In this document: positions 18,681 to 56,089 of the stretch, piece after piece
Layout of the letters: every line of letters begins with the position of its first letter
Numbering within the stretch: the stretch's first letter is position 1
NCBI GenBank assembly: GCA_022821985.1
Contig: JAJECP010000021.1
Location: 1 to 64,000 of the forward strand
From: Acidimicrobiia bacterium
Lineage (GTDB): Bacteria > Actinomycetota > Acidimicrobiia > Acidimicrobiales > Poriferisodalaceae
Reading direction: 5' to 3'
Length of the DNA: 64,000 bases
Notes under the pieces: model-generated
Seen by the model: the letters and a program-made list of their open reading frames with translations, nothing else
Told to the model about the DNA's origin: nothing
Database searches by the model: none
Translations under genes and position numbers: made by a program

Positions 18681-18745
18681 TCCCGCTCTTGTTCGCTGCG
18701 CTCACGGGCCGCTCGGGCCACGGCTTCGCCTGCCGGCTCAGCCTC
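18681..18745 (-). repeat. Dispersed in-frame repeat, copy A (behind the helicase stop)
   Basis: A 65-bp sequence read on the minus strand as the peptide [20 protein letters not shown]. It begins 9 nt after the stop of the DEAD-box helicase and is in the same frame as that gene. It is 63/65 identical to copy B (29551-29615) and 61/65 to copy D (56025-56089). The rest of 18532-18754, upstream of metX, holds no gene. Confidence 0.85.
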
Positions 18746-18754
18746 TGGGGAGTT

Positions 18755-19924
18755 TCAGCGGCTGGCGTTGTCGCTGCTGGCCGCAAACGCCGCGAGATCG
18801 TCGAGACGCTCGTCATTCGAGAACACATCGTGCAGCTGCAGCCGCAGGCCCAGCCGGCGCTGCAGCTGGCGCACCTCGAGCTCTTCGTCCCACAGGAACA
18901 TGGTGACGGCGGTGCCGCTGCGGCCAGCGCGAGCCGTCCGACCGGAGCGGTGCAGGTAGGTCTTGTGCTCGGGGGGCACGTTGTAATGCACCACCACGTC
19001 GACCTCATCGATGTGCAGCCCTCGGGCGGCCACGTCGGTAGCCACAAGTGCGGCCAGCTTGCCCTTGGTGAAGCTGGCGAGCGCACGCTCCCGCTTGACC
19101 TGGGGCAGGTCGCCGTGGATGGCGCCTGCTTGCACTCCCGCCTCTCGCAGGTCACGGGTGAGCTGGTCGGCGCCCCGCTTTGTGCGTGTGAACAGCAGCG
19201 TGCGCCCGTTCGCCTCGATGATGCGGGCGGCGACCCGTACCCGGTCCATCTTGTGCACCGACAGGAACAGGTGCCCCATCTCCGAGACAGTCACCTCGCG
19301 TTCGGTGACTTCGTGGAAGACCGGGTCTCGCAGGTGCCGCTTCACCAGCGTGTCCACCACGCCGTCGAGAGTCGCCGAGAACAGCAGCGTCTGATGCTGG
19401 CCGTCGATGTGACGCAGCACCCACTCGACCTGGGGCAGAAACCCCATGTCGGCCATCCGGTCGGCTTCGTCGACCACCACTCGCTGGATGCCCGACACAT
19501 TGACCGCACCGCGGTCGATGAGATCGATGAGCCGTCCGGGGGTGGCGATGACGACGTCCATGCCGTCCGACAGCAGCTCGATCTGCCGATCGAGGTTGGT
19601 GCCGCCATAGGTGGCGATCGACCGCAGGTCGGCTGCTTTGGCCAGCGGCTCGACCACGGCGGCGATCTGGTTCGCCAGCTCGCGGGTCGGCGTGAGCATG
19701 AGGGTGGTGGGGTGGCCGTCGGCGGCACGAGGCGTCAGCGCCAGCATGGGCAGGCTGAACGCCAGCGTCTTGCCGGAACCCGTCTTGGCTTTGCCGCAGA
19801 CGTCTCGGCCGGCGAGTGCTTCGCCGATGGTCAATTCCTGGATTGCGAACGGCTCGGTGATTCCTTGGTCAGCCAGGGTGTCGCAGAGGGGTTCGGGTAC
19901 GCCTAGTTCACTGAATGTTGTCAC
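18755..19924 (-). CDS. DEAD-box RNA helicase
   Basis: 389 residues. The motifs run in order: Q motif (FAIQELTI, one residue off the usual PIQ), motif I AKTGSGKT, Ia PTRELANQ, II DEAD in VVVDEADRM, III FSATL, IV LLFTRTK, V ATDVAARGLH, VI HRSGRTARAG. These enzymes unwind short RNA duplexes in ribosome assembly and RNA decay. GTG 19924 is chosen because homology starts there (TTFSELGVPEPL) and GAAGAG precedes it. The C-terminal tail is short, without an RNA-binding extension. Confidence 0.93.
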   Translation of the reverse strand: MTTFSELGVPEPLCDTLADQGITEPFAIQELTIGEALAGRDVCGKAKTGSGKTLAFSLPMLALTPRAADGHPTTLMLTPTRELANQIAAVVEPLAKAADLRSIATYGGTNLDRQIELLSDGMDVVIATPGRLIDLIDRGAVNVSGIQRVVVDEADRMADMGFLPQVEWVLRHIDGQHQTLLFSATLDGVVDTLVKRHLRDPVFHEVTEREVTVSEMGHLFLSVHKMDRVRVAARIIEANGRTLLFTRTKRGADQLTRDLREAGVQAGAIHGDLPQVKRERALASFTKGKLAALVATDVAARGLHIDEVDVVVHYNVPPEHKTYLHRSGRTARAGRSGTAVTMFLWDEELEVRQLQRRLGLRLQLHDVFSNDERLDDLAAFAASSDNASR

Positions 19925-20161
19925 GGGGGTCTCTTCGAAGGTCGTGGCCCAAGGGTTGCGGAGCCGCGACCTCGGCTGCGACAACGCTGGGCAGTGGGGC
20001 CACACGGCGAACTGCCTTGGCTGCCGAGTGTATGGGAGCAACGGTGCGGGGCGGCGGAGCAAGGCCTGCGCCGCACCGTTTGGCTACCAGTGCGCCGCAG
20101 CGCACGCCGCAGGAAATGCCGCCGTCATTCGGGAGGCAGACCACTACCCTGCGAAGTCCCG

Positions 20162-20232
20162 GGCGGAGTGGCCGAGTGGTTAGGCAGCGGCCTGCAAAGC
20201 CGTGTACGCCGGTTCGAATCCGGTCTCCGCCT
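20162..20232 (+). tRNA. tRNA-Cys (GCA)
   Basis: The acceptor GGCGGAG (20162-20168) pairs with CTCCGCC (20225-20231), the anticodon loop CTGCAAA gives GCA, the TPsiC arm is GGTTCGAATCC, and the discriminator is T. CCA is not encoded. A TACCCT box at 20145-20150 is a plausible -10. Confidence 0.95.
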
Positions 20233-20342
20233 CGCCGGCCGGCCGGACCGGGATGGGACTCAGGCGCTCGTCGATTGACCCCGAGCAGGCCCAGAGCGTC
20301 GGCAGAGCGCTGCGGACAGAGTGCTAGCGTGAGTCGCCCTCA

Positions 20343-20416
20343 GGGCGATTGGCGCAGTTGGTTAGCGCGCTTGCATGACACGCAAGAGGTCACAGGTTCG
20401 ACTCCTGTATCGCCCA
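20343..20416 (+). tRNA. tRNA-Val (GAC)
   Basis: The acceptor GGGCGAT pairs with ATCGCCC, the anticodon stem CTTGC/GCAAG encloses loop ATGACAC (anticodon GAC), and the TPsiC arm is CAGGTTCGACTCCTG. CCA is not encoded. Confidence 0.95.
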
Positions 20417-20417
20417 C

Positions 20418-20435
20418 CCCGAGGGTCTCCTCGGG
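20418..20435 (+). terminator. Hairpin directly behind tRNA-Val
   Basis: CCCGAGG-GTCT-CCTCGGG forms a perfect 7-bp GC-rich stem with a 4-nt loop, 1 nt after the tRNA. There is no T-tract, which is common for terminators in high-GC actinobacteria. Confidence 0.6.
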
Positions 20436-20678
20436 TTCGCGGCCGGTGATGCTGCCAACCCCAAACCCACCACTCCACGGGACATAGTCGGATCGTGCCT
20501 GCGGTCATGTTCCTCTCAGCAGACGCGGTGGTCCTCGTTCGGCTCTGAACTGCCGCACGACCGAGGAGGCCTGCCGCGAGATATGGGGCGATGAATTCGA
20601 GGGAATCATGGTCAGGCGAACATAAAAATTCTGGTTAGATAACCGTAATCTCTGTGGTTAGCGGGTAGTCTCCTGGCT

Positions 20679-21962
20679 GTGGAGTACGTGAGACGCCACT
20701 CGGAAACGACGCTCGACGACTCGCTCGAGGCATCTCGTGTCGTCGTGCTGCACGGCGCGCGTCAGTCGGGGAAGACCACGCTGGCGCGTCAGGTTGCGCA
20801 GCGGCGCGGGGGCTCGTACGTGACGCTCGACGACGACGCATCGCGGCTTGCCGCACTGGACGACCCGATGGCGTACCTGTCCGGATTGCAGGCACCCGCG
20901 GTGGTCGATGAGGTCCAGGTCGGCGGCGACCGCGTCGTGCGGGCCGTCAAACGCCTCGTCGACGAGTCCGACGAGCGGGGCCGGTTCCTGCTGACCGGCT
21001 CCACGAACTTCTTGTCGGTGCCTGCGATCAGCGAGTCGCTGGCCGGTCGGGCACGCATCTTGCGCCTGTTCCCTTTCTCGCAGGCTGAGCTCGACCACAG
21101 CTCTCCGGTCGACCTCGCAGGCTGGTTCGACGCTTGCGAAGTCGAGCCCCCACGCGAGATCGAAGACCGCGCGCAGTACATGAGTCGCTTGTGCAGAGGC
21201 GGCTTTCCCGAGGCGGTCGCACTGTCGCCACAGCAGCGCCGAGGCTGGCACGACAGCTACCTCGAGACAGTCATCCAGCGCGACGTCACCGAGCTCGGCG
21301 ACATCCGCCGAGCCGACGCACTCGTCGAGCTGGTCCGCTGGTCGGCAGCGAGCACCGCAGGCGAACTCAACGTCCAGGCGGCCTGCGGGCAGCTCGGCAT
21401 CGATCGGTCCACGTTCGATCGCTACTTCGCGTGGCTCCGCACCGTGTTCATGGTCCACACGGTGCCTGCGTGGTCGCGCAAGCACGCCGCCCGCGTCGTC
21501 CGACGGCCCAAGCTGCACTTCGCCGACACCGGCATGGCAGCGGCGCTGCTGGGCATCGACGCCGACGCCTTGGCCTCACCCACCTCGACAGTCGCCGGCC
21601 CCCTGCTGGAAACGTTCGTCGTGAACGAACTGGCGCAGCAGAACGTCGGCGCAGCGGGCGTGCGAATTCACCACCTGCGCGACTACGACGGCAACGAAGC
21701 AGACCTCGTGCTCGAACGCCCCGACGGCGCCGTCGCAGCGGTCGAGGTCAAAGCGACAGGCAGCCCCGGCGAGAACCACCTCAAACCGCTCCGATGGCTG
21801 CGAGACCGCCTCGACCGCACCGCGCCAGGCACCTTCCGCATCGGCGTGCTGATGCACACCGGCCCCCACTGTCACCCCATCGGCGACCGCCTCTGGCTAG
21901 CCCCCATCAACAGCCTCTGGAACCAGCCAGAAACACGTGATCTCCGATGTGCATCCGGATGA
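20679..21962 (+). CDS. AAA ATPase with DUF4143 C-terminal domain
   Basis: 427 residues from GTG. Walker A is GARQSGKTT and Walker B is APAVVDEVQ. LLTGSTNFLS is the sensor region. The C-terminal domain ends with EADLVLERPDGAVAAVEVKA, the nuclease-like D-E-x-K strand pair. It is the third member of this family in the window and diverges clearly from the one at 3552-4718. Upstream, an AT-rich patch contains GGTTA-GA-TAACC (20633-20644) and another GGTTA at 20656, possible operator elements. A TAGTCT box 7 nt before the GTG suggests a leaderless transcript. The remaining 240 bp back to the tRNA hold no recognisable gene. Confidence 0.82.
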   Translation: MEYVRRHSETTLDDSLEASRVVVLHGARQSGKTTLARQVAQRRGGSYVTLDDDASRLAALDDPMAYLSGLQAPAVVDEVQVGGDRVVRAVKRLVDESDERGRFLLTGSTNFLSVPAISESLAGRARILRLFPFSQAELDHSSPVDLAGWFDACEVEPPREIEDRAQYMSRLCRGGFPEAVALSPQQRRGWHDSYLETVIQRDVTELGDIRRADALVELVRWSAASTAGELNVQAACGQLGIDRSTFDRYFAWLRTVFMVHTVPAWSRKHAARVVRRPKLHFADTGMAAALLGIDADALASPTSTVAGPLLETFVVNELAQQNVGAAGVRIHHLRDYDGNEADLVLERPDGAVAAVEVKATGSPGENHLKPLRWLRDRLDRTAPGTFRIGVLMHTGPHCHPIGDRLWLAPINSLWNQPETRDLRCASG

Positions 21963-21985
21963 CGATGCCCCCGAAGCGGCAGAGT

Positions 21986-22279
21986 TCAGGCATCCGCCAA
22001 GGCCCGCAGGCCCGGCAGGATCTCTTCGGGTTCGCGGCCGGTGATCTCGAGGTAGACGGCGTCGGCGCAGAGTTCTGCGTCGTCAGACCAGCGGATCGTG
22101 CGGTGCGGCGTGATGCTGGCTGACTCGAACACGCCGCGTTCGTTCCAGATTGCAAAGACGCCACGACCGGCGCGGTGTGACAAGTCGATCTCGCCTTCGA
22201 CGCCGTCGTCGAAGCAGACCCACAGCCGGTAGTCGCTTCGTGCCTCTATAGCGACGGGGTGCAGCTGGTCATCCGGCAT
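21986..22279 (-). CDS. DUF2442 protein
   Basis: 97 residues. The core (LHPVAIEARSDYRLWVCFDDG, then an EGEIDLS strand, FAIW, and ADAVYLEI) is the DUF2442 pattern. These small proteins are often encoded beside DUF4160 partners in toxin-antitoxin-like pairs. No DUF4160 gene is seen here, only a short open frame overlapping the start. GGAG 7 nt upstream supports ATG 22279. Confidence 0.75.
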   Translation of the reverse strand: MPDDQLHPVAIEARSDYRLWVCFDDGVEGEIDLSHRAGRGVFAIWNERGVFESASITPHRTIRWSDDAELCADAVYLEITGREPEEILPGLRALADA

Positions 22280-22455
22280 GTCGAGTCTCCGAGGACATCC
22301 CCTGCGAGGGCCGCAGGTTGAGAACCCCCTCGATGACACAGGCTAAAGCGCTGCGCAGATCGGCGATGTCGTGACTCGAGCCGTTGCCGGTCGGACTGCG
22401 GTCCGATCTCCCGATCCTGAATGTTCTGGGTCGGCGTGCCAGAATTCGCGGCGCT

Positions 22456-24762: not shown

Positions 24763-24829
24763 GGCCGGTTCCGAGACGGGCCGACCGGCACCGCACGCTG
24801 GGCCGCACGGTAGGGTGACGGCGACAACA

Positions 24830-24917
24830 CATACCGGGGAGCCCATGGGGCTGAGAGGGCGACAGCAGTGCCGTCGCCGACCCGAGAACCTGATCTGGGT
24901 AATGCCAGCGGAGGAAG
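24830..24917 (+). ncRNA. TPP riboswitch (THI element)
   Basis: The conserved elements are in order: ACCGGGGAGCCC, GGCTGAGAG (pyrimidine-sensor T-loop), a variable hairpin of GGCGACAGCAGTGCCGTCGCC type, ACCCGAGAACCTGATCTGG and GTAATGCCAGCGGAGGAAG. This is the classical thi-box layout. The 3' strand contains GGAGG (24910-24914), which is also the Shine-Dalgarno sequence of thiB, so TPP binding should block translation. A TAGGGT box at 24811-24816 is the likely -10. Confidence 0.95.
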
Positions 24918-24920
24918 CAC

Positions 24921-26054
24921 ATGAACGCCCACCGAATGCACAGGCCATTTCGTCTCGCTGTTGCCGTTGCGGCAACGACGCTGCTCATTGCGGCTTGCGG
25001 CAGCGACGACGTCCCCGAGACAGATTTTCCGGCGCCACCGCCCGAGACGGAGTCTCCGTCGGAGGACGCGGCGGCCCGGGCGACGACCACCACCGAGCCG
25101 TCCATCGACGGCACGACGGTGACGCTGATCACCCATGACTCGTTCAATCTGTCCGACGGGACGCTCGAGGAGTTCACGGCGCTGACCGGCGTGACGGTGG
25201 AGCTGCTCGAAGTCGGCGATGCGGGCACCCTCGTGGCCGAAGCCATCCTCACCAAGAATGCGCCGCTGGGCGATGTGCTGTTCGGCATCGACAACACGTT
25301 CCTGCAGCGCGGCCTCGACGCCGGCATCTTCGAGCGGTATGAATCGCCTGCGCTTGCCGGCGTGCCCGAGGAGCTGCAGATCGATCAGCGCCATCGCGTC
25401 ACCCCGGTGGACTACGGCGACGTGTGCGTGAACTACTGGAAGGACGCGGTGCCGTGGGAGCCCGTGACCCTCGACGAGCTGACATTTCCCGAGTTCGCCG
25501 ACCAACTGGTCGTGCAGCATCCCGAGACCTCGTCGCCGGGTCTGGCCTTCCTGCTCGCCACCATCGCCGCCTTCGGCGACGGGTGGGAGCTGTACTGGGA
25601 GGACTTGCGGGCCAACGGTGTCACGGTTACCGCCGGCTGGGAGGACGCTTACTACGGCGAGTTCATCTCCGGCGGGGGCAACCGGTCAATGGTCGTGTCG
25701 TACGCCTCCAGCCCGCCGGCCGAGGTGATCTACGCCGATCCGCCGACCGACACAGCTCCCACCGGCGTCATCACCGAGTCGTGTTACCGCCAGATCGAAT
25801 TCGCCGGCATCTTGACGGGTACCGACAACGAGGCCGGGGCACGCGCGCTCATCGACTTCATGCTGAGCGAGACATGGCAGAACGATGTGCCGCTCAACAT
25901 GTTCGTGTACCCCGTCATCGAGAGCGCGACCCTCCCGCCCGAGTTTGTCGAGCACACCGCAGTGCCCCCGCATCCGCTGATGCTCGACCCGGCCGAGATC
26001 GAGGCCAACCGCGACGCCTGGACCGAGCGGTGGGTGGAGATCGTGCTGCGCTGA
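24921..26054 (+). CDS. thiB: Thiamine ABC transporter, substrate-binding lipoprotein
   Basis: 377 residues. A signal peptide with lipobox LIAAC is followed by a Thr/Glu/Pro-rich linker (about 25-55) and a periplasmic-binding fold of the ThiB/iron(III) class (VTLITHDSF at the start, GIDNTFLQRG, VDYGDVCVNYW, GVITESCYRQIEFAG). Regulation by the TPP riboswitch directly upstream makes thiamine or a derivative the expected ligand. The start ATG lies 6 nt behind the riboswitch-embedded GGAGG. Confidence 0.92.
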   Translation: MNAHRMHRPFRLAVAVAATTLLIAACGSDDVPETDFPAPPPETESPSEDAAARATTTTEPSIDGTTVTLITHDSFNLSDGTLEEFTALTGVTVELLEVGDAGTLVAEAILTKNAPLGDVLFGIDNTFLQRGLDAGIFERYESPALAGVPEELQIDQRHRVTPVDYGDVCVNYWKDAVPWEPVTLDELTFPEFADQLVVQHPETSSPGLAFLLATIAAFGDGWELYWEDLRANGVTVTAGWEDAYYGEFISGGGNRSMVVSYASSPPAEVIYADPPTDTAPTGVITESCYRQIEFAGILTGTDNEAGARALIDFMLSETWQNDVPLNMFVYPVIESATLPPEFVEHTAVPPHPLMLDPAEIEANRDAWTERWVEIVLR

Positions 26055-26082
26055 GCGCACGGCACGCCCACTCGCCGAGCCG

Positions 26083-27753: not shown

Positions 27754-28200
27754 CTAGGAGGCCTTCCAGAGGCGGTGTCCCTCGATCCACAGCAGGATCG
27801 GCAACGCAGTATCGATCAGGTGCCAGATCGTGAAGTTGTCGCCGCCGTCGACCATCGCTCGAAACCAGTTCGGGACGAAGGCGATCGTCACGGCGACAGC
27901 GAAGATGAACATGGCCCGGGCGCCTCGATCGTGGAAGCTGGCCGTCGACCGCCGCTGCCATGTGGTGAGCAGCACCAGTGCCAGTGCGGCCGCCATGAAC
28001 CAGTCGAGGACGTTCCACACATCGAGGTTGGCGGGATCGCCGGGTTCGTCGCCGGGGCCATAGAAGGGGAACGCGAAGAAGTTGACCACCACGGCGGCGG
28101 CGACCAGCTTGAGATAGATCGCTACGGGCTTGGCGAGGATCATGTGTCGGGCCTCCTTCGGCAGGGCTGTCAGACCCAGCACCATGGTGGTCGCCGTCAC
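27754..28200 (-). CDS. Hypothetical four-helix membrane protein
   Basis: 148 residues with about four hydrophobic segments (IYLKLVAAAVVVNFFAFPF, WFMAAALALVLLTTW, MFIFAVAVTIAFVPNWF, LIDTALPILLWIEG). I do not recognise the family. Its GTG overlaps the stop of the acetoacetyl-CoA synthetase gene (GTGA), so it is co-translated with it. Confidence 0.7.
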   Translation of the reverse strand: MTATTMVLGLTALPKEARHMILAKPVAIYLKLVAAAVVVNFFAFPFYGPGDEPGDPANLDVWNVLDWFMAAALALVLLTTWQRRSTASFHDRGARAMFIFAVAVTIAFVPNWFRAMVDGGDNFTIWHLIDTALPILLWIEGHRLWKAS

Positions 28201-30356
28201 GCCTCCAGTGCGGGATGATCGACGAAGTGGTCGAGCGCGCTGGGATCGTCGATGGCCTCGACGTTGGCCACCGGTCGGCCCTCCACGACGTCTCGAATCG
28301 CCAGCTCCACGAGCTTTCCTGAACGGGTGCGCGGGATCGCCGGCACTTGGGCGATCACTGCGGGCACGTGGCGCGGCGACGCCCCCGAACGGATCTGCGA
28401 GCGGATCCGGCCGATCAGCTCGTCGCCGAGCGTCACGCCCTCGCGCAGCTTCACGAACAGCACCACCCGGGTGTCGCTGCTGGCTGCCGCGCTGCCGCTG
28501 GCCGGCGCTCGTTGGCCGATGACCACGCTCTCGAGCACCTCATCGATCTGGTCGACCTGGCGGTAGATCTCCGCAGTGCCGATGCGCACCCCGCCGGGAT
28601 TCAGCGTGGCGTCGGATCGCCCGCTGATGATCATGCCGCCGGCGGGCGTCCATTCGGCGAAGTCCCCGTGGTGCCACACGCCCTCGAAGCGTTCGAAGTA
28701 CGCAGATCGGTAGCGCGCGTCATCCGGGTCGTCCCAGAAGCGCAGCGGCATGGACACGAACGCGTTGCGGCACACCAGCTCGCCCTGCGTGCCGGCGCCG
28801 AGCGACGCGCCGTCTGCATCGGCCACGTCGACATCGAGGCCGAGTGCAGCCGCTTGGATCTCGCCGCGGCGGACCGGGCCGGTTGGGTCGCCGATCACGA
28901 AGCCGCCGCAGATGTCGGTGCCCCCGGAGAACGATGCCAGATGAACGTCGGCCTTCACCTGCTGGTACACCCAATCGAAGCCCTCGGGCGCCAGGGGAGA
29001 ACCGGTGGAGGAGATCGTGCGCACGGTGTCGAGCGCATGGGTCTGCGCCGGCCGCAGGCCGGCCTTCATGGCGCCTTCGATGAACTTGGCGCTGACGCCG
29101 AGCAGCGTGACGCCCCAGTTGTCGGCCACGTCGAAGAGCCGTGCCGGATCGGGATGGAACGGCGACCCGTCGTACAGAACCAGCGATGCGCCGCTGGCCA
29201 GCCCGGCGACGAGCCAGTTCCACATCATCCAGCCGGTGGTGGTGAAGTACATGACGCGATCACCGGGGCGGACGTCGAAGTGCAGCCGTTGCTCGCTCCA
29301 CAGCTTGAGCAGCGCGCCGCCCGCACGATGCACGATGCACTTCGGCTTCCCGGTAGTGCCCGACGAGTACAGGATGTACACCGGCTGGTCGAATCCGAGC
29401 CGTTCGAAGGTCAGGTCGTCGCCGTTGGCGACGCGATGAGGTGCCAGCCACTCTGTCCACGATGTCGCCGATCCCGGCACATCGCCTGATGGAGCGGGTG
29501 CGCTGCGGTCGTACGGAGCGATGACGAGCCGGGGCCCAGCCCCTGTTGCATCCCGCTCTTGTTCGCTGCGCTCACGGGCCGCTCGGGCCACGGCTTCGCC
29601 TGACGGTTCAGCCTCTGTTGCTGCCAGGCTGGCGGCCACCTCGGCCGCCTTGCTGGCCGTGTGATGGCGCACGCCGTTGTAGTAGTAGCCGTCGACGGCG
29701 ACCATGACGGTCGGGGAGATCTGGCCGAAGCGGTCGAGCACGCCGTCGATGCCGAAGTCGGGGCTGACCGACGAGTACACGGCGCCCAGCGACGCCGTGG
29801 CCAGGAACACGATGAGCGCTTCGGGGCCGTTGGGGAGCATTGTGGCCACCCGGTCGCCCACGCCGACTCCGTCGGCCGCCAGCGCCCGCTGGCACGCTGC
29901 CACCTCGGCGCGCAGCTCGCCGTGCGTCATCGTCAGCTGCGCTGCGTCCTCGCCGATGAACGCCAGGGCCGTGTCGTCTGCGTGTGGCCCGCCCGCAGTG
30001 ACGGGCCGCAGGTAGTGCTCGGCGATGTTCAGGCTGGAGCCGGCGAAGAACTCCAGATCAGGGCCTGGCGTCGCGCCACCTGCTGTCGAGGCAGCACCGC
30101 CCTGCGACCCTGCGGAGACGAAATTGGGGCCGAGCTCGCCGATGCCGTCGCAGAACTCCCACACGGCGCGCCAGAACGCCCCTGGATGCTGCACGGACCA
30201 CGCATGCAGATCCGCGTAGGTGTACCGGCCGAGCCCGATTCCTACCTGTTCGGCGAACTGCCAGAGCTGGGTTCCCACACGTCGCTCGGCATCAGGCCGC
30301 CACAACACGTTTGCGTCGGCGACCGCGGCACTCTCGCTGTCTGCTGAGCTGCTCAT
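28197..30356 (-). CDS. Acetoacetyl-CoA synthetase (acetoacetate-CoA ligase)
   Basis: 719 residues of the acyl-adenylate family. The A3 motif is YSSGTTGKPKCIVH, then FTTTGWMMWNW, SFSGGTDICGGF, the hinge region GRSDATLNPGGVRIG, and the catalytic Lys in RTRSGKLVELAIRD. N-terminal ACAS_N and overall sequence fit acetoacetyl-CoA rather than acetyl-CoA synthetases. It activates acetoacetate with ATP and CoA. ATG 30356 is preferred because TATGTT lies 7 nt upstream. The loop after AEVAASLAAT carries a 65-bp in-frame repeat (copy B), adding a charged peptide just before RLVIAPY. Confidence 0.88.
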   Translation of the reverse strand: MSSSADSESAAVADANVLWRPDAERRVGTQLWQFAEQVGIGLGRYTYADLHAWSVQHPGAFWRAVWEFCDGIGELGPNFVSAGSQGGAASTAGGATPGPDLEFFAGSSLNIAEHYLRPVTAGGPHADDTALAFIGEDAAQLTMTHGELRAEVAACQRALAADGVGVGDRVATMLPNGPEALIVFLATASLGAVYSSVSPDFGIDGVLDRFGQISPTVMVAVDGYYYNGVRHHTASKAAEVAASLAATEAEPSGEAVARAARERSEQERDATGAGPRLVIAPYDRSAPAPSGDVPGSATSWTEWLAPHRVANGDDLTFERLGFDQPVYILYSSGTTGKPKCIVHRAGGALLKLWSEQRLHFDVRPGDRVMYFTTTGWMMWNWLVAGLASGASLVLYDGSPFHPDPARLFDVADNWGVTLLGVSAKFIEGAMKAGLRPAQTHALDTVRTISSTGSPLAPEGFDWVYQQVKADVHLASFSGGTDICGGFVIGDPTGPVRRGEIQAAALGLDVDVADADGASLGAGTQGELVCRNAFVSMPLRFWDDPDDARYRSAYFERFEGVWHHGDFAEWTPAGGMIISGRSDATLNPGGVRIGTAEIYRQVDQIDEVLESVVIGQRAPASGSAAASSDTRVVLFVKLREGVTLGDELIGRIRSQIRSGASPRHVPAVIAQVPAIPRTRSGKLVELAIRDVVEGRPVANVEAIDDPSALDHFVDHPALEA
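29551..29615 (-). repeat. Dispersed in-frame repeat, copy B (inside acetoacetyl-CoA synthetase)
   Basis: 65 bp, 63/65 identical to copy A. It is read in frame as [20 protein letters not shown] within the synthetase, at a position where relatives have a variable loop between the DGYYYNG strand region and the next core strand RLVIAPY. Confidence 0.88.
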
Positions 30357-30454
30357 CGAGCGCAACATAGTCAGCCGCTGTCACGTCCTCCGTTTCGATG
30401 GGTGAGGCAACAACCACGGAATCGCTCTGAGCCGTGCGGGTAGTGTCCCCACCC

Positions 30455-39148: not shown

Positions 39149-41362
39149 TCACGTCTCGCCGCGGCGGCCTTCGCCGGCGTGTGCCACCCACGTCGCATAC
39201 ATCCCGGCGTACTGCCCGCCCAGCGCCACCAACTCGTCGTGGGTGCCCAGCTCCACCACGCCACCCTCGTCGATCACGGCGATGCGGTCGGCTCGCATCG
39301 CCGTCGCCAGCCTGTGCGCAATGAGCACCGCCGTGCGGCCTTCCAGTAGCAGGTCCAGCGCACCCTCGATCTCGGCCTCGGTGCTGAGATCGACGCTGGA
39401 CGTGGCCTCGTCGAGCACGATCACCCTCGGCCGCGCCACGAACGCCCGGGCCAGCGCCAAGAGCTGCCGCTCGCCGGCCGACAGCGACACGCCCCGCTCG
39501 TGTACCTGGGTGTCCGCGCCCTCGGGCAGGCTGTCGATCAACCGGCGCAGACCGACCAGGTCGATCGCCGCGTCGATGTCGGCGTCGAGCTGGGTGTCGC
39601 CCTCGCTCCCGGCGCGGTCGCGCAGGCCGAATGCCACGTTGTCGCGGATGGTGCCGTGGAACAGGAACGGCTCCTGGGGAACAACGCCGAGCTGGTTGCG
39701 CAGCGACGACAGCGTGACGTCACGCAGGTCCCAGCCGTCGATCGTGATCCGGCCGGCTGTCGGGTCGTAGAAGCGGATGATCAGTTTTGCGATCGTGCTC
39801 TTGCCCGCGCCCGTCGGCCCCACTAGGGCGAACGTCTCGCCGGGGCGGATGTCGAGGCTGACATCGCTCAGCACCTCGGGCGGGTCATCGCCAAACGGCT
39901 CGTCGCTGCCGGCAATGCCGCCCTCGGCATCGCCAAAGGGTGGCTCGCCGGCGCCGTTGCGCTCTGCGTGCTCGCCATTCGCCGTCGGCCCCATCCCCAG
40001 TGGGTCGAACGACACTCGCATCCGTCGCGACTCGTCTGCGTCGCCATTCACCCTGTCGCCGGCTGTGCTGTTGTTGCCGTCGCCGGCAGTGCTGTTGCTG
40101 CCGTCGCCGGCAGTGCCCGCGGTGGCCGCATCGTCGTCATAGGCGAACGACACGTTCTCGAGCCGGATGTGACCGCTCACCGGTGGCAGCTCAGCCGCGT
40201 CGGGATGCTGGCGCACGGTCGGCTGTGTTGCCAGCACCTCGCTGATCTTGCGGAGACCGGACTGGCCTTGCTGGTAGGTGCTGTAGAGCTGCGCGAGCTG
40301 CTGGATCGGGGCGAAGAACCTGGTGACATACAGCACGAACGCGCCGAGCTCCCCGACGGTGAGGCTGCCTCGCACCACCATCGCCCCGCCGATCGCCAGC
40401 ACCAGTCCCTGGGCGGCAATGCCGATCGCCTCGGTGCTCGGCCCGTAGATCGCCTGCACCCGGGACATGGACAGGTTGGCGTCGCGGAAGCGAGCGGTCA
40501 CCTTGCGGTGCCGCACCGCGTTCTCCAGGCGACGCCCGGTGGCTGCAATCACCCGGATCCCGGCCAGATTCTCGGACAGGTCGGCCAGCACGTCGGCGAT
40601 GCGGTCGCGGATCTCGCCGTAGCCCGCCTCGCTGCGTGCCCGGAACCACAGCGTCAGCGCCACCAAAGGCGGCACGATCCCTACGAGCAGGATCACCGCC
40701 AAGACCGGGTTGTAGGTGAACAGCACCACGGTCACGACGCACACCGTGAGCACCTGGATCAGCAGGTTCACGAAGCCTTCGTTGATGAGCAGCGCCACGT
40801 ACTCCATGTCGGAGGTCATGCGGCTGAGCAGCACGCCGGACTTGGCCGTGGTGTACCAGTCGAGCGAGAGCCGTTGGTAGTGGCTGAACAGGCGCAACCG
40901 CAGGTCGAACATGACCTGTTCGGCAATGCGCCCGTTCAGGCGTTGACGCAGCCGGCTGAGCAGGATGCTCACTGCGACAACGCCGAGAAAGATCAGCACC
41001 ACCATGTTGAGCGCGAAGCGGTCGCCCGCCTCGATGCCGCGATCGATGCCCTGCTGGAAGAGCACCGGCACCGCTTGCATCGCCGTGGTCTCGAGGCAGA
41101 GCAGCAGCAGTGCCAGGCCCACGCTCCAGCTGTGCGGCACCAGCATGTCCCGCAGGCCGAACGGGCGCGCCCGCCCGCCCCCGGCACCTCCGGCCACATG
41201 GTCGAAGTCGACGTCCGGCTCGGGGTGGGCCGGCTCGGCCTCCAGCAGCTTGTTCGCGCCTTCCTGCATCTCGGTCGGCACGCCGGCGAACGGCAGCCCC
41301 GCTGCGGCGCTGGCCTGTGTCGCAGTCGGCCCCATGTGGCCGGGGCCGCCGACCATCACCAT
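39149..41362 (-). CDS. ABC exporter half-transporter, canonical-site subunit
   Basis: 737 residues. An N-terminal extension of about 75 residues is followed by six transmembrane helices (about 75-370) and a nucleotide-binding domain with Walker A GPTGAGKST, Q-loop VVPQEPFLF, signature LSAGERQ and Walker B VIVLDEATSSVD with the catalytic Glu. Between the membrane part and the core Walker A lies a Gly/Asn/Thr-rich insertion of about 90 residues containing STAGDGNN repeats. It pairs with the overlapping upstream gene as a heterodimeric exporter of lipids, drugs or peptides. Confidence 0.88.
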   Translation of the reverse strand: MVMVGGPGHMGPTATQASAAAGLPFAGVPTEMQEGANKLLEAEPAHPEPDVDFDHVAGGAGGGRARPFGLRDMLVPHSWSVGLALLLLCLETTAMQAVPVLFQQGIDRGIEAGDRFALNMVVLIFLGVVAVSILLSRLRQRLNGRIAEQVMFDLRLRLFSHYQRLSLDWYTTAKSGVLLSRMTSDMEYVALLINEGFVNLLIQVLTVCVVTVVLFTYNPVLAVILLVGIVPPLVALTLWFRARSEAGYGEIRDRIADVLADLSENLAGIRVIAATGRRLENAVRHRKVTARFRDANLSMSRVQAIYGPSTEAIGIAAQGLVLAIGGAMVVRGSLTVGELGAFVLYVTRFFAPIQQLAQLYSTYQQGQSGLRKISEVLATQPTVRQHPDAAELPPVSGHIRLENVSFAYDDDAATAGTAGDGSNSTAGDGNNSTAGDRVNGDADESRRMRVSFDPLGMGPTANGEHAERNGAGEPPFGDAEGGIAGSDEPFGDDPPEVLSDVSLDIRPGETFALVGPTGAGKSTIAKLIIRFYDPTAGRITIDGWDLRDVTLSSLRNQLGVVPQEPFLFHGTIRDNVAFGLRDRAGSEGDTQLDADIDAAIDLVGLRRLIDSLPEGADTQVHERGVSLSAGERQLLALARAFVARPRVIVLDEATSSVDLSTEAEIEGALDLLLEGRTAVLIAHRLATAMRADRIAVIDEGGVVELGTHDELVALGGQYAGMYATWVAHAGEGRRGET
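40056..40120 (-). repeat. 24-bp tandem repeat inside the exporter gene
   Basis: A 24-bp unit starting TCGCCGGCAGTGCTG occurs at 40056-40079 and 40080-40103 with a partial third copy. It encodes the (N)STAGDG(N) repeats of the linker in front of the nucleotide-binding domain. It stays in frame and is a likely site of length variation. Confidence 0.8.
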
Positions 41363-43374
41363 GATCCGCTGCTCCCGGGCGTGCCGTCGGCGGTGGCGAA
41401 TCGGTCCGGATCGCTCGTGTCGCCCCCCGCGGCCAGCACCTCGACATAGCGGGGCTCGGTGGCCATCAGCTCTGCGTGGGTGCCGTCGGCGGCAACTCGC
41501 CCGCCGTCCAGCAGGATCACCCGGTCAGCCAGGCTGATCGTGGACAGCCGGTGAGCGATCACGATGGTCGTGCGCTCGGCGAGCAGCTCGGTGAGTGCCT
41601 CGTGGATCCTCGCCTCGTGCGCCACGTCGATGGAGCTCGTGGCGTCGTCGAGAATCAGCACGGCGGGATCGGCGAGGATCGCCCGTGCGATTGCGATGCG
41701 CTGGCGCTGGCCGCCCGAGAGGTCGTAGCCGCGCTCGCCGACCACGGTGTCGTAACCCTCGTCGAGCTCGCTGATGAAGTCGTGGGCCTGTGCCGCGGTG
41801 GCAGCGGCGACCACATCTGACCTGGCGGCATCGGGCCGTGCGTAGGCGATGTTGTCGTGAATGCTGGCCGAGAACAAGAACGGCTCGTCGGGCACGAGGC
41901 CGACGGCTCGGCGCAGGCTGTCGCCGGTGAGGGCGTTCACGTCGTGACCGCCGACCGAGATGGTGCCGCTGCCGAGGCTGTAGAAGCGCATCAGCAGCCG
42001 GGCGAGCGTCGATTTGCCGCAGCCGGTACGCCCGACGACCGCGACCCGCTCGCCGGCGCCGATGTGCAGGTCGAGCCCGTCGAAGACCAGCGGCGCATCG
42101 CTATCGGCGCTCGCTGTTCCCGCTACGCCTCCGACCGTCTCGGTGCCGTAGGCGAATCGCACGCCGTCGAATCGCACTTCCATACCTACCGGACCATCTG
42201 GCGTTGTTTCCCGCTCATGTTCCCCGTCTTCATTCGATACGGGCTCCCGGGCCGCTCGGGCCACGGCTTCGCCATGCGGCTCAGCCTCTGGGCGCTGCGG
42301 CAGGTCGATGGCACCGGGACGGTCTGCCACCAGCACCGGCTCATCGAGCACCTGGAAGATGCGCTCTGCGGACGCCTTGGCCCGCTGGCCGAAGATGAAC
42401 AGCATCCCGATGAACCGGAACGGCGCCTGCAGCAGCAGGATGTACAGGTAGAAGGTGGCCAGATTGCCTACCGAGAGCGAGTCGCCGATGATCAGGTGAC
42501 CGCCCACCAGCAGCACCATCGCCATTGCCAAGTTCGGAAGGTTCTCGACGACCGGCGTGTAGTGCGCCCTGGTGTTGTGCTGCAGCATGTTGGCCCAGCG
42601 CAGCCGTTGGGTGGCCCGGGCCATCTCTTCCACCTGACGGGCCTCGGCGGCAAAGGCCTTCACGACACGAACGCCGTTCACGCTCTCGTGGGTGACGGTG
42701 GCGACCTCGGCGTTGCGTGACTGGATGATCCACGACAGCGGGAACATGATGCGTCGCAGCCGCTGGCCCAGCACGTAGACGGCGGGCATGATCAGCATCG
42801 TGATGGCGGTCAGCGGCAGGCTGATCCATGCCATGACCGCGATCGCCACCACGAAGCTCAAGAGCTGCACCGACACAATCGGCGCGAAAGCCAGATACAT
42901 CTGCACCGAGCGGATGTCGGAGTTGGAGCGGGAGATGATCTCGCCGGTCTGCACCCTGTCGTAGAACGCGAACGACAGCCGGCTGAGGTGGGAGAAGAGC
43001 AGCGTGCGCAGCTGGAACTCCACCCGGTGGCCCATGGAGAAGAGCCCGTAGCGGTAGGCGTAGGTGAAGATGCCGCGTGCGATGCCGAGCCCCACCAGGG
43101 CGATGACAAACGCCCACAACGCGCCTGAGCCGGCGCCTTCGAGACCGGTCACTGCGGCGTCGACGGCCAAGCCGGCGATCCATGGAGCGATGGCTCCCGC
43201 GCCCGTCGCCAAGATGGCGGCGATCACCGCGGTGACGATGCGCGCCCGCTGGTGCCGCAGCAATGGCCCGAGCCGCCGGATCCAGCTCAGCGACGGGTCG
43301 GCGCGAATCCAGTCGGCGTCAGGATCGGGCTGCGCGGCGGACTCCGCGGGCGCAGTGGGTGGGGCCACCCGCAT
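41356..43374 (-). CDS. ABC exporter half-transporter, degenerate-site subunit
   Basis: 672 residues from ATG 43374, chosen because a TAGCCT box lies 7 nt upstream; an upstream start would add 22 residues. Six transmembrane helices are followed by an ATPase domain with Walker A GRTGCGKST, signature LSGGQRQ and Walker B VLILDDATSS, where Asp replaces the catalytic Glu. The Q-loop reads VPDEPFLF, Asp for Gln. This pattern marks the non-catalytic partner of heterodimeric exporters. The linker between membrane and ATPase parts contains the dispersed repeat (copy C). Confidence 0.88.
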   Translation of the reverse strand: MRVAPPTAPAESAAQPDPDADWIRADPSLSWIRRLGPLLRHQRARIVTAVIAAILATGAGAIAPWIAGLAVDAAVTGLEGAGSGALWAFVIALVGLGIARGIFTYAYRYGLFSMGHRVEFQLRTLLFSHLSRLSFAFYDRVQTGEIISRSNSDIRSVQMYLAFAPIVSVQLLSFVVAIAVMAWISLPLTAITMLIMPAVYVLGQRLRRIMFPLSWIIQSRNAEVATVTHESVNGVRVVKAFAAEARQVEEMARATQRLRWANMLQHNTRAHYTPVVENLPNLAMAMVLLVGGHLIIGDSLSVGNLATFYLYILLLQAPFRFIGMLFIFGQRAKASAERIFQVLDEPVLVADRPGAIDLPQRPEAEPHGEAVARAAREPVSNEDGEHERETTPDGPVGMEVRFDGVRFAYGTETVGGVAGTASADSDAPLVFDGLDLHIGAGERVAVVGRTGCGKSTLARLLMRFYSLGSGTISVGGHDVNALTGDSLRRAVGLVPDEPFLFSASIHDNIAYARPDAARSDVVAAATAAQAHDFISELDEGYDTVVGERGYDLSGGQRQRIAIARAILADPAVLILDDATSSIDVAHEARIHEALTELLAERTTIVIAHRLSTISLADRVILLDGGRVAADGTHAELMATEPRYVEVLAAGGDTSDPDRFATADGTPGSSGSW
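42209..42288 (-). repeat. Dispersed in-frame repeat, copy C (inside the ABC exporter)
   Basis: 80 bp. The half beginning [15 protein letters not shown] matches copies A, B and D (37 of 40 bases against A). The other half is replaced by a 15-bp longer segment encoding PVSNEDGEHERE, with the same terminal bases as copy A. The length difference is a multiple of three, so the frame is kept. It sits exactly in the linker between the membrane domain (ends DEPVLVADRPG) and the ATPase domain (starts MEVRFDGVRFAYG). Confidence 0.82.
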
Positions 43375-43469
43375 CCCGGCGAGGCTACCGGCGCCCCTGT
43401 TCGGCAGGCCGGAGCTTGCGGGTACCGTGGACGGCGCCACTGGGGCGCGCGGGGGTGCACGGCACCGGC

Positions 43470-51376: not shown

Positions 51377-51378
51377 CG

Positions 51379-51972: not shown

Positions 51973-52967
51973 ACGCAGCGCCGCTTCGCGGGCGTGTGCG
52001 CGGCCTCCTTCGTCCCGTGCGAGGGCGTGACATGGCTCGCCGCCCGGTAGGGCGGGACAAGGCGATAGTGCTGGGGTACCAGGCAGGGGCATCAGCCGCC
52101 CGGCTGGCCCCGCTGTGGCTCACCGAGCGTGTGGCCGAGCTGGCCGGACCGGTACTCGCCCGGCTGATGCCTGCCAAGGCGGCGATGGTCCGGCGGCATC
52201 AGGCCCGCGCGCAACGCTGGGCCGCAGACTCGACGGACGATCTCGACCGGGCCACAGCGGCTGCGTTCAGCTCCTATGCCCGCTACTGGCTGGAATCGTT
52301 CCGCCTGCCCGCGCTGAGCGAGCTCACCTTGGACCGGGGCATCGACGTGCCGGCGTATCACCATGTGGAGGAAGCCCTCGAACGCGGCAACGGCGTCATC
52401 TTGGCCCTCCCGCACCTCGGGGGCTGGGAGTGGGCCGGGTTCTGGATGGCCACGGTCAATCGACTGCCGATCACCGTGGTGGTGGAGCCGCTCGACCCGC
52501 CTGAACTGTTCGAGTGGTTCGCCGACTTCCGTGAGCGATTGGGCATGCGGGTCGTGCCGCTCGGGCCGAACGCGGGACGCGAGGTGCTCGGCGCCCTGCG
52601 ACGGAACGAGATCGTCTGCCTGCTGTGCGACCGCGACCTCACCAACGACGGCGTCGAGGTGACCTTCGGGGATGAGCGAACAACCCTGCCGGCGGGCCCG
52701 GCAATGCTGGCGCTGCGATCAGGCGCTGCCCTGCTGCCGACCGCTGTGTACTTCCGCCCCCGGGGCAGGCACCTGGGCACGGTTCGGCCGCCGATCGATG
52801 TCACGCGGCACGGCCGCCTGCGCGACGACGTGACTGCCGTCACCCAGCGACTCGCCGACGATCTGGTCACGCTGATCGCCGCAGAACCGCACCAGTGGCA
52901 TCTCTTCGGCCCGAATTGGCCATCAGATCGCCTCGCCGGATCAGGCGACGCGGGCGAGGCGCCATAA
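51969..52967 (+). CDS. patA: Phosphatidylinositol mannoside acyltransferase (PatA/LpxL-HtrB family)
   Basis: 332 residues. The acyltransferase motif H-x4-E is seen in ALPHLGGWEWAG, and CDRDLTNDGVEVTFGDE and PAGPAMLALRSGAALLP are further family blocks. In mycobacteria the enzyme in this position acylates the mannose of PIM1/PIM2. It overlaps pgsA1 (GTGA) and is followed by pimA, preserving the mycobacterial order pgsA1-patA-pimA. Confidence 0.85.
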   Translation: MNAAPLRGRVRGLLRPVRGRDMARRPVGRDKAIVLGYQAGASAARLAPLWLTERVAELAGPVLARLMPAKAAMVRRHQARAQRWAADSTDDLDRATAAAFSSYARYWLESFRLPALSELTLDRGIDVPAYHHVEEALERGNGVILALPHLGGWEWAGFWMATVNRLPITVVVEPLDPPELFEWFADFRERLGMRVVPLGPNAGREVLGALRRNEIVCLLCDRDLTNDGVEVTFGDERTTLPAGPAMLALRSGAALLPTAVYFRPRGRHLGTVRPPIDVTRHGRLRDDVTAVTQRLADDLVTLIAAEPHQWHLFGPNWPSDRLAGSGDAGEAP

Positions 52968-52986
52968 AAGCAAGCCCCGAACGGCC

Positions 52987-53016
52987 TTGTTGTGGCATCT
53001 GTGCCGCGCCTAGCGT
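52987..53016 (+). promoter_or_regulatory. Candidate pimA promoter
   Basis: TTGTTG (52987-52992), 18-bp spacer, TAGCGT (53011-53016). A short leader carries GAGGAG (53030-53035), 7 nt before the GTG of pimA. So pimA may be transcribed on its own as well as with patA. Confidence 0.45.
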
Positions 53017-53042
53017 CGCGTTCGACTGTGAGGAGCGGCTGA

Positions 53043-54128
53043 GTGAGAGTCGGGATCATCTCGCCGTACAGCCTGACCAGCGCCGGCGGCGTCCAGGTGC
53101 AGGTGCTGGGCCTGGCCCGTGCGCTGGCCGCGAACGGCCATGAGACCAGGGTGCTGGCGCCCTGCGACGGCGCACCGCCCCAGACCGGCGTCACACCGTT
53201 GGGCGCCAGCATTCCTACGTTCGCTAACGGGTCGGTCGCCCCGATCGCACCCGATTTTGCATGCACGCTGCGCACCGTTCGGGCACTGCGCGACGAGGAG
53301 TTCGACGTCGTGCACCTGCACGAGCCGCTGTGTCCGGGGCCCACGCAGACGGCGCTCTTCCTGAACTCGACGCCCATCGTGGGAACCTGGCACGCGGCAG
53401 GCGGCAGCATGGCGTATCTGGTGCCGGGAACGCGATGGCTGGCGTCTCGGATCGACGTTCGGGCCGCAGTCTCGGCTGATGCTGCCGAGATGGCCCGCAA
53501 CGGCGTCGGCGGCAGCTACGAACTCGTCTTCAACGGCGTCGAGCTCGACCACTTCGACGATGCGGTTCCCAAGCGCAACGAAGCACCCACCATCGCTTAC
53601 ATCGGCCGCCACGAGCCGCGCAAGGGCCTCACCGTGCTGCTCGACGCCATGTCGCGTCTGCCTGAGGGCGTCAGGCTGTGGGTGATGTCGCGCGGCCCGC
53701 AGACCGAGGAGCTGCAGCGCCGGTACCAGCGCGACACGCGCATCGAATGGCTGGGTCGCGTCAGCGAGGCCGAGAAGCTGGCGCGCATCAAGGGTGCCGA
53801 CGCGCTGTGCGTGCCGTCGCTGCACGGCGAGAGCTTCGGCGTGGTGCTCCTGGAAGCGATGGCAGCGCGCACGCCGGTGGTCGCGAGCGACCTGCCCGGC
53901 TATCGCAACGTTGTCAGCGTCGGCGACGAGGCGGTGCTCGTTCCCCCCGGCGCCCCGAAGGCGCTGGCGAAGGCACTCATCGGTGTGCTCAGGCGTCCCG
54001 ACCGGGCGGCCGACCTGGTCGCCGCGGGCCGTCAGCGGGCCGAGCAGTTCTCGATGGCCCGCCTGGCGGACATCTACGCGGACATGTACGAGCGCGCCAT
54101 CGCCCGACGCGTCTCCACCAAGGGCTGA
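53043..54128 (+). CDS. pimA: Phosphatidylinositol mannosyltransferase PimA (GT4)
   Basis: 361 residues of the GT-B fold. MRVGIISPYSLTSAGGVQVQ is the N-terminal donor/acceptor loop, FDVVHLHEPLCPG and GTWHAAGG line the cleft, and HGESFGVVLLEAMA is the E-x7-E GDP-mannose motif. It adds the first mannose to phosphatidylinositol at the cytoplasmic face. Sequence and neighbourhood agree well. Confidence 0.93.
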   Translation: MRVGIISPYSLTSAGGVQVQVLGLARALAANGHETRVLAPCDGAPPQTGVTPLGASIPTFANGSVAPIAPDFACTLRTVRALRDEEFDVVHLHEPLCPGPTQTALFLNSTPIVGTWHAAGGSMAYLVPGTRWLASRIDVRAAVSADAAEMARNGVGGSYELVFNGVELDHFDDAVPKRNEAPTIAYIGRHEPRKGLTVLLDAMSRLPEGVRLWVMSRGPQTEELQRRYQRDTRIEWLGRVSEAEKLARIKGADALCVPSLHGESFGVVLLEAMAARTPVVASDLPGYRNVVSVGDEAVLVPPGAPKALAKALIGVLRRPDRAADLVAAGRQRAEQFSMARLADIYADMYERAIARRVSTKG

Positions 54129-54254
54129 GCCGCCGGCCGACGCGGCGGCGCAGCGGGCCGGGTGGTCGCCTGCGACTGAGTGCGACGGCAGAGAGTGTCG
54201 CTTCACCGCGATCGCTGTGGGGCGAGGGTGTTGCGGGGGAGCCGGGCCGGTTGA

Positions 54255-55070
54255 ATGCTGCGGGTGGACCCGCTGTTCGCCATCTATCGCAGTCGAGCCG
54301 ACAAGCTGCTGGCGGAGTTCTGGGCCGTGCACCTGGTTGCGGCGACCATCGTCGGCGTGCCGGTGGCGCTGTTCACCGGGCTCGGCTGGTGGGCGCTGCC
54401 GATTGCGCTCGCTGCGACGAGCGTGCTCGCAGCCGGCGAACTGGCTGTGGGGGAGCGGCGCCTGCAACGAGCGCTCCTCGGAGCCGGCTCAGGGCCGAGC
54501 GATGCTGACAGCCATCCTCGCCTGGAAAACGTTGTCGACGGCGTCTGCCTGCTCGTGGGCGTTCCGGTGCCGACGCTCGCTGTCGCGCCGAGCTCGGCTG
54601 CGAATGCGACGGCATTTGGCCGGCGACCGGATCGCTCGACCCTCGTCGTCACGCAGGGACTGCTTGACGCGCTCAATCGCATCGAGCTGGAGGCCGTCGT
54701 GGCGCGGCTGCTGACGCAGATTCGTGACGGGCGGGCTGCCTACCTGACCACCGCGGTCACCACGGTGGGGTTTCCGGCGCTGGTGTGGCCGGCCCTGTGG
54801 CCGCTGGTGCAGGCTCGCACCGAGCGCGAGGCCAGCACCGGCAGCGACTTCGACGACGACGACGAAGCCGTGCGGCTGACCCGTTACCCGCCCGGTCTCG
54901 CCGATGCGCTCCAGACGATGTCGGCGGCCGGTGTGCGCACCGATGCACCTCGGGTGACCTGGCCGCTGTGGTTGGCCGATCCGAGGGCCGACGCAGCCGA
55001 TGCTCCCGACAGCCTGCCCGACTACCGGGCAGATCTCGAGACACGGGTTGCGGTGCTGCGCGAATTCTGA
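54255..55070 (+). CDS. M48/HtpX-like membrane protein lacking the HExxH zinc motif
   Basis: 271 residues. Two N-terminal hydrophobic helices precede a region that follows M48 peptidases closely: ENVVDGVCLLVGVPVPTLAV, SSAANATAFGRRPDRSTLVV and GLLDALNRIELEAVVARLLTQI. The zinc motif HExxH is expected where RLLTQ (151-155) stands. So the protein keeps the fold signature but should not bind zinc or cleave peptides. It may be a pseudoprotease with a structural role. It lies alone between pimA and pdxS. Confidence 0.7.
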   Translation: MLRVDPLFAIYRSRADKLLAEFWAVHLVAATIVGVPVALFTGLGWWALPIALAATSVLAAGELAVGERRLQRALLGAGSGPSDADSHPRLENVVDGVCLLVGVPVPTLAVAPSSAANATAFGRRPDRSTLVVTQGLLDALNRIELEAVVARLLTQIRDGRAAYLTTAVTTVGFPALVWPALWPLVQARTEREASTGSDFDDDDEAVRLTRYPPGLADALQTMSAAGVRTDAPRVTWPLWLADPRADAADAPDSLPDYRADLETRVAVLREF

Positions 55071-55124
55071 GCTCGGCGGGATAATCCCCGGGGCAGCACT
55101 GGGGCCGTTCCCTACACTGAGCGC

Positions 55125-56024
55125 ATGAATTCAGGTGACGGAGCGTCTCATCTGGTCGGAACGGTGCGGGTCAAGCGCGGGCTTGCCGACATGCTCCGGG
55201 GCGGCGTCATCATGGATGTCGTCACGCCCGAGCAGGCCAAGATCGCGGAAGACGCCGGAGCGGTTGCCGTCATGGCGCTCGAACGCGTGCCGGCCGACAT
55301 TCGCCGTGACGGCGGTGTGGCCCGCATGAGCGACCCGGCGATGATCGAGGGCATCCAGGCGGCCGTGACGATCCCGGTCATGGCCAAGGCCCGGATCGGC
55401 CATTTCGGCGAGGCCCAGGTGCTCGAATCCCTCGATGTCGACTACATCGACGAGTCTGAGGTGCTGACACCCGCAGACGAGGCACATCACATCGACAAGT
55501 GGGCGTTCACCGTCCCGTTCGTCTGCGGCGCCACCAATCTGGGCGAGGCGCTGCGGCGCATCTCCGAGGGTGCCTGCATGATTCGCTCCAAGGGCGAGGC
55601 CGGCACCGGCAACATCGTCGAGGCCGTGCGTCACCTGCGCTCGATCACGGGCGACATCCGCAAGATCACCCAGGCCGATGCCGCCGAGCTGTTCGATTGG
55701 GCGAAGCAGCTGCAGTCGCCGCTCGGCTTGGTGCAGGAGATTGCCGAGACCGGCCGCCTGCCGGTGCCCCTGTTCTGCGCCGGCGGCATTGCCACACCGG
55801 CCGATGCGTCGCTGGTGATGCAGCTCGGCGCCGAGGCAGTGTTCGTCGGCTCGGGCATCTTCAAGAGCGAAGACCCGGGGCCGAGGGCCGAGGCCATCGT
55901 CGAGGCCACCACGCACTACCGCGACCCGTCGGTGGTGGCCAAGGTGAGCCGGGGTCTCGGCAGCGCCATGCCGGGCCTCGAGATGGAGGGTCTCGATACC
56001 AAGCTCGCCGAACGCGGCTGGTAG
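55125..56024 (+). CDS. pdxS: Pyridoxal 5'-phosphate synthase subunit PdxS
   Basis: 299 residues of the (beta/alpha)8 PdxS family, typical length. [20 protein letters not shown] contains the first catalytic region, [10 protein letters not shown] the ribose-phosphate lysine, SKGEAGTGN and [13 protein letters not shown] the phosphate-binding loops. It makes PLP from ribose-5-phosphate, glyceraldehyde-3-phosphate and ammonia from PdxT. ATG 55125 lies 6 nt behind TACACT (55113-55118). The stop is followed without spacing by dispersed repeat copy D. Confidence 0.97.
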
Positions 56025-56089
56025 GAGGCTGAGCCGAATGGCGAAGCCGTGGCCCGAGCGGCCCGTGAGCGCAGCGAACAAGAGCGGAA
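56025..56089 (+). repeat. Dispersed in-frame repeat, copy D (between pdxS and pdxT)
   Basis: 65 bp, 61/65 identical to copy A in the same sense. Starts at the first base after the pdxS stop and reads in pdxS frame [20 protein letters not shown], continuing in frame into the pdxT reading frame. Its 3' end (GAGCGGA) is 4-5 nt before the pdxT ATG and may serve as its ribosome-binding site. Confidence 0.88.

Follow-up and report, generated by a model that had tools for sequence, protein, structure and literature searches.

How the same short piece of sequence comes to lie inside an acetoacetate-CoA ligase, inside an ABC exporter and directly behind two further genes is the question raised by a 64,000-nucleotide (nt) stretch of an Acidimicrobiia genome of the family Poriferisodalaceae (assembly GCA_022821985.1, contig JAJECP010000021.1, positions 1 to 64,000), here called the window. 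A first-pass annotation, made from the letters of the window, had noticed four copies of a repeat of about 65 bp that was always in sense and in frame, and had proposed that it is tolerated within proteins and may be mobile. The four copies are indeed present at the places given, and their 24-nt core has four exact matches in the window compared with a mean of 0.00 in 100 shuffles; all of them encode the same 15-residue peptide, and in strand and frame each agrees with the coding sequence before it. The repeat probably represents a small, mobile but non-autonomous family with a covarying core, spread within the class Acidimicrobiia, and its copies in the window are the following.

18633..18745, minus strand: copy 1, near full length (positions 2-114 of 117 of the model, nhmmer), starting 9 nt past the helicase stop codon
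29541..29616, minus strand: copy 2, 3'-truncated, in frame within the acetoacetate-CoA ligase
42202..42288, minus strand: copy 3, carrying the CCGTATCGAATGAAGACGGG hairpin module, in frame within the ABC exporter
56025..56095, plus strand: copy 4, 3'-truncated, abutting the pdxS stop codon and extending into the pdxT start

Mobility, previously offered as an inference, is supported by empty sites in relatives of the genome from which the window comes (G000; genomes and loci carry the designations G and L). The sites of the window copies were compared in the relatives where both flanks were available for alignment; the insert of approximately 112 nt that constitutes copy 1 is absent in five of five (G009, G008, G010, G005, and G006) and copy 3 in six of six (G006, G008, G003, G005, G004, and G010). 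Ten relatives could be aligned at the site of copy 2, which is absent in G009, G010, G006, G005, and G007. In G004 and G008 the spot is taken up by different short sequence, and in G001, G002, and G003 by a shorter variant of the element; this ligase site, with differing versions of the element in two species groups, may be a hot spot or an old insertion with repeated loss. Copy 4, also aligned in ten relatives, is present in G007 and G010, has left remnants in G008 and G005, and is absent in six. The pdxS-pdxT junction (55900-56240) is at odds with overall similarity, as G009, although it resembles G000 in other regions, has the junction type without the element that is seen in G001 and G002, and G007 together with G010 has the G000 type, a pattern that may reflect recombination or several gains and losses. 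Every window copy has relatives that lack it at the corresponding site, and the element is thus mobile or has a rapid turnover. A wider comparison with the sister species G009, in which empty and shared sites were set by gap length, gave 45 pair records: the 31 filled in G000 were empty in 13 cases (11 loci), shared in 8, and of other kinds in 10, and those filled in G009 were empty in 3, shared in 7, and of other kinds in 4.

The genome G000 (3.31 Mb, 89.87% complete) contains the element in at least 41 places according to BLAST, one of them a 13-nt scrap, and in 58 exact places according to the core pattern; when mismatches were allowed, the reversed control was nearly as frequent, and only exact places and those fitting the repeat were used. 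A profile search of the window and of 55 stretches around matches gave 79 matches in 75 loci, a set that covers the fetched stretches and would miss weak copies elsewhere in the genome. At least 15 matches were found in each of ten other genomes of the genus, and a covariance model built from 30 copies had matches in 20 of 296 class genomes, including G000, in 13 of 149 genera (E ≤ 1e-4), in a scan whose filters lose weak matches. In public genomes the exact 24-nt core is present in at least 115 stretches, and 78 of the 80 listed are titled Acidimicrobiia or Acidimicrobiaceae; several of these isolates, to judge by their names, are presumably of marine-sponge origin. No Rfam family matches the four window copies at gathering scores, and the sole match at four element loci with E up to 1 is mir-1641, beside the L321 element (E 0.017; 28.5 bits compared with a gathering score of 104). 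Searches of phage, plasmid, and IMG/VR collections, one of them for an exact 19-mer only, gave no match to the element within their sensitivity.

The length of about 65 bp did not hold, because 65 nt are the conserved part of a modular repeat of about 115 nt. As seen in the printed copies, the full form is AGAGGCTGAGCC-loop-GGCGAAGCC-GTGGCCCGAGCGGCCCGTGAGC-hairpin-GAACAAGAGCGGGAAACAACAGGTG...ATCCGCGC..CTCT, and the unit is composed, in this order, of AGAGG, stem P2, CCGTGGCCCGAGCGGCCCG, stem P4 (often with a GNA loop), AAGAGCGGGAA, a variable tail with a weaker stem P5, and ATCCGCGC..CTCT, both ends being present in 29 of the 75 loci. The terminal inverted repeats are short, about 4-7 bp by eye and longer in one copy of G043, and a terminal helix of 3 pairs has 72.7% of cells paired in the within-genus alignment. 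Three main forms exist of the hairpin past GTGAGC: a short one (GNAGC and its variants) and two of greater length. The exporter copy has one of the latter, and the 15-nt longer middle noted earlier in this copy is a hairpin module present in further copies. There are also two-module loci in which, by eye, the second module lies within the P2 loop and the P2 arms are still complementary, such as L143, whose arms around the extra module are GGCTGAGCAC/GTGCGAAGCC with GCAC/GTGC pairing; L090 and L203, in sister genomes, differ by one module. Among the cross-family copies (36 matches from 35 of 38 loci outside the genus set) the AGAGG 5' end is found in 22 of 35 (16 of 25 genomes) and a ATCCGCGC-like 3' motif in 10 of 35 (7 of 25), so that the core and the stems are more widely common than the ends.

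The statement that the repeat is not strongly palindromic is correct for single sequences, whose folding is no better than that of shuffles (z-scores from -0.77 to 0.60), and misleading for the family, as the stems covary across the class. In the cross-family alignment 94.0% of cells are paired and 16 of 21 pairs are changed on both sides, with 102 such cells; none of 500 shuffles reaches any of five measures, and pairing drops to 29-46% when the partners are slid. A plain reading of the copies supports this pairing and gives the P2 arms GGCT..AGCC, GGCC..GGCC, GGGC..GCCC, GGCTGCGCC..GGCGCAGCC, and GGCCGACGCC..GGCGTCGGCC, and the P4 stems GGCGGC-GAA-GCCGCC, GGCCC-GAA-GGGCC, GGCGC-GAA-GCGCC, and GGTGC-GTA-GCACC; stem P3 never varies and is thus uninformative. 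Within the genus, stem P5 has changes on both sides in five of six pairs, but with 67.2% of cells paired, and RNAalifold proposes for the within-genus alignment a different core pairing in which no pair is changed on both sides. By eye, the letters of P2 and P4 are common to both printed copies in each of G133, G297, G170, and G074. In G156, loci L332 and L347 represent two subfamilies, each with a self-complementary P2 (GGCTGCGCC/GGCGCAGCC and GGCCGACGCC/GGCGTCGGCC).

The genes that surround or flank the window copies were identified by domain and family models.

18755..20062, minus strand: DEAD-box RNA helicase, neighbour of copy 1 (PF00270/PF00271)
28197..30368, minus strand: acetoacetate-CoA ligase, host of copy 2 (TIGR01217 and NF002937, above cut-off)
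41356..43440, minus strand: ABC exporter, host of copy 3 (PF00664/PF00005; best NCBIfam models MsbA-like, below their cut-offs)
55125..56024, plus strand: pdxS, neighbour of copy 4 (TIGR00343)
56038..56094, plus strand: small open reading frame (ORF) of 18 residues within copy 4, with AGGAGG upstream at 56023-56028 and a TAA that overlaps the pdxT ATG
56094..56753, plus strand: pdxT, whose start is at the end of copy 4 (TIGR03800)

In the exporter, the transmembrane region spans residues 70-341 and the ATPase domain residues 454-602, and copy 3 lies between them. Genome-wide, the placement was tabulated on our own codon-score gene calls, with ORFs called after masking of the element, and the rule of constant sense and frame does not extend beyond the window: 46 of the 75 loci are outside called genes, and the intervals between tandem genes hold 39 sense and 17 antisense copies (binomial p 0.005), with 13 further loci between divergent and 6 between convergent genes. 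A strand bias therefore exists. In G009, 30 loci comprise 15 sense, 6 antisense, 6 divergent, and 3 convergent cases (p 0.08 alone), and the two sets of counts are not independent, as several sites of G009 are common to G000. The remaining 29 loci of G000 are inside a masked ORF call, and 14 of these are open through the element: eight are in sense with at least 30 codons on each side, five in the EAEP frame and three in another (one of which, L136, is weakly coding on its upstream side), two are antisense with weak coding scores, and four have a shorter side. Frame-keeping insertion into proteins is consequently real in 8 of the 75 loci, and is a minority case that makes use of two frames. 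Five of the six frames stay open over the first 66 nt in 21 to 30 of 30 copies, and over 113 nt in 14 to 25 of 30; an element open in most frames needs no special design to survive within a protein, and, with only one of six frames regularly closed, a stop-codon filter alone is insufficient for the sense bias. The EAEP frame is open over 113 nt in 24 of 30 copies, and its conservation would also fit the stems and core letters found across the class.

Among the 46 loci outside called genes, 16 begin 0-11 nt past a sense gene (manual count). A scan of 8 of the 55 stretches with ARAGORN located elements in sense 1-3 nt past the 3' ends of tRNA-Ala (L091:11404-11517) and tRNA-Arg (L107:17411-17486), and a third 30 nt past tRNA-Ile. 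A general role of the element as a portable start codon for the next gene was rejected, since ATG-bearing loops and preceding stop codons are not associated (Fisher p 1.0, 47 copies).

At the 5' junction there is a preference for C at -4 (46 of 71), C/T at -3 (62 of 71), and A/G at -1 (63 of 71), with little preference further out, and several left flanks depart from the empty site over 5-13 nt. Three pairs show by eye junction repeats of 3-5 nt, which are TTG/CTTGG at L124, CCCT at L137, and CTGAA at copy 1; no duplication was seen by eye at the clean sites L193 and L134. Long direct repeats of flanking sequence occur among 21 class copies of distant genera (62 nt at L336 and 17 nt at L344), where others were noticed by eye around the element (22 nt at L071 and 29 nt at L075); they were rejected as a general trait, as the direct repeats around 50 copies of G000 show no excess.

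In the explanation that we favour, a trans-acting factor would recognise a folded single strand, either RNA or single-stranded DNA, together with the core letters, and would insert the copies; each lineage would amplify its own master copy or copies, and selection would keep the pairing for the sake of spread, not for the gene at any one site. Copies would persist where harm is small, namely between genes, downstream of stop codons and tRNAs, and within the linkers of proteins, since the element is short and most of its frames are open. A bolder and less likely reading is that in this class-wide family the transmissible form is a folded single strand, read by its fold and core and inserted at gene 3' ends, mainly in sense, by an enzyme outside the four kinds searched for below; modules that nest within the P2 stem would let the element grow and shrink and yet stay foldable.

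A number of observations weigh against the favoured explanation. Within the genus, the first 63 nt (P2-P4) hardly vary, which leaves the cross-family alignment as the basis for the structure, an alignment that leans towards the covariance model because it was fitted to it; the within-genus structure as a whole is no better than shuffles on several measures, its covariation score being reached by 54 of 500 and its percentage paired by 82. The alignment-free check of P2 is weak, with stems of at least 8 in 3 of 17 copies compared with 1.8% in shuffles and a mean of 5.1 compared with 4.0, and the corresponding pattern left 11 of 28 unmatched. The two P2 types of G156 and the two P4 types of both G211 and G245 do not agree with a single master copy per genome. 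By eye, the filled and empty pairs have untidy junctions and no target duplication of constant length; nearness to gene ends may reflect a compact genome with a median tandem gap of 44 nt, and a host function may favour the sense copies. In addition, no mobiliser was identified among the four enzyme families searched in 11 genomes of the genus.

The Y1 transposase (Y1_Tnp, PF01797) is found in none of the 11 genomes, whose completeness is 84-98%, and is positive in 5 of 14 control genomes; the TnpB zinc ribbon (PF07282) is likewise found in none of the 11. IS110 (PF01548) is over the cut-off in seven, weak in G000, and without a match in G006, G009, and G010, and reverse transcriptase (RT, PF00078) is matched in seven, five of them over the cut-off, and in none of G000, G003, G004, and G010. 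Each is missing from some or all of the copy-bearing genomes of the genus and was rejected as the common mobiliser. A REP/REPIN identity, with a RAYT (Y1) transposase as the mover, is accordingly extremely improbable, despite the high copy number, the capacity to form hairpins, and the location mostly outside genes; besides the missing transposase, the unit exceeds the 20-40 bp given for REPs in PMC3733652. The RNA-like covarying fold, the sense bias, and the lack of a fixed target duplication would suit a guide-type RNA of TnpB or IS110 transposons, or else a retro-mobile RNA that RT copies, and this origin is nevertheless very unlikely in view of the same absences, above all in G010, which is 95% complete, rich in copies, and without a match to any of the four families.

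A miniature inverted-repeat transposable element (MITE), that is, a short derivative of a DNA transposon with terminal inverted repeats whose transposase is elsewhere in the genome, is a possibility to be kept in mind, although we doubt it. Some copies have terminal AGAGGC/GCCTCT, which one copy of G043 extends by eye to GGAGGACATAGAGGGC/GGCCCTCTATGTCCTCC, and the junction repeats at three sites and the 5' junction preference point in the same direction; the other clean sites lack any duplication, and no autonomous parent with such ends was seen, in work that included no systematic search for one. The repeat might instead act in cis as an RNA that serves the host where genes end, in stability, re-initiation, or termination, with selection keeping its sites. 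Such a role would explain the covarying stems, the sense bias, and the copies that closely follow genes and three tRNAs, and has a precedent in another system, for which PMC7518266 describes conserved mRNA structure past stop codons. This explanation is unlikely, considering that 13 of 31 comparable sites of G000 are empty in the sister species, that 17 of 56 copies in tandem intervals are antisense, and that some copies are inside proteins.

The non-autonomous mobile family with a structured core has relatives in kind. The earlier statement that no actinobacterial case is described is not right in this respect: MIRUs, according to PMC12548453, are small mobile repeats of mycobacteria coupled to reading frames. 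They resemble the present repeat in being small, apparently mobile, actinobacterial, and located at gene junctions, and they can contain an ORF linked to the gene downstream, which among the window copies is true of copy 4 with pdxT (TAATG overlap); in contrast, the same text has MIRUs insert at start codons with -4 nt spacing, whereas this repeat shows no general coupling and occupies both strands and other sites. The comparison is by description and not by sequence. RPEs likewise can sit in frame within unrelated proteins, and differ in that nearly half of them are in ORFs according to PMC10969869, compared with 8 of 75 in sense here, a separation also made by description. ERIC and RU-1 to RU-3, which PMC2759123 presents as enterobacterial mobile repeats of 100-170 bp, intergenic and on occasion with ORFs within genes, are similar, and the difference, again by description, is the covarying core measured in this repeat. 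REP/REPIN elements with their RAYT share the high copy number and the hairpins; this repeat is longer, has nested modules, and is found in a genus in which no Y1 transposase was detected. In a limited open-access literature search for Acidimicrobiia interspersed or palindromic repeats and MITEs, no description of this repeat was found. The repeat is best classed as a new family of small non-autonomous interspersed repeats, a kind already known, and it looks like a family that works as MIRUs and RPEs do and is yet separate, with a structure-constrained core.

A small, protein-tolerated, covarying mobile repeat is thus placed in a class where limited searches found none described, with recent in-frame insertions seen in a metabolic enzyme and a transporter. 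The natural filled and empty pairs between sister species make the insertion chemistry of orphan repeats, an old open question, directly readable. Apart from the repeat, the window contains at 24825-24933, on the plus strand, a thiamine pyrophosphate (TPP) riboswitch that scores above its gathering score.

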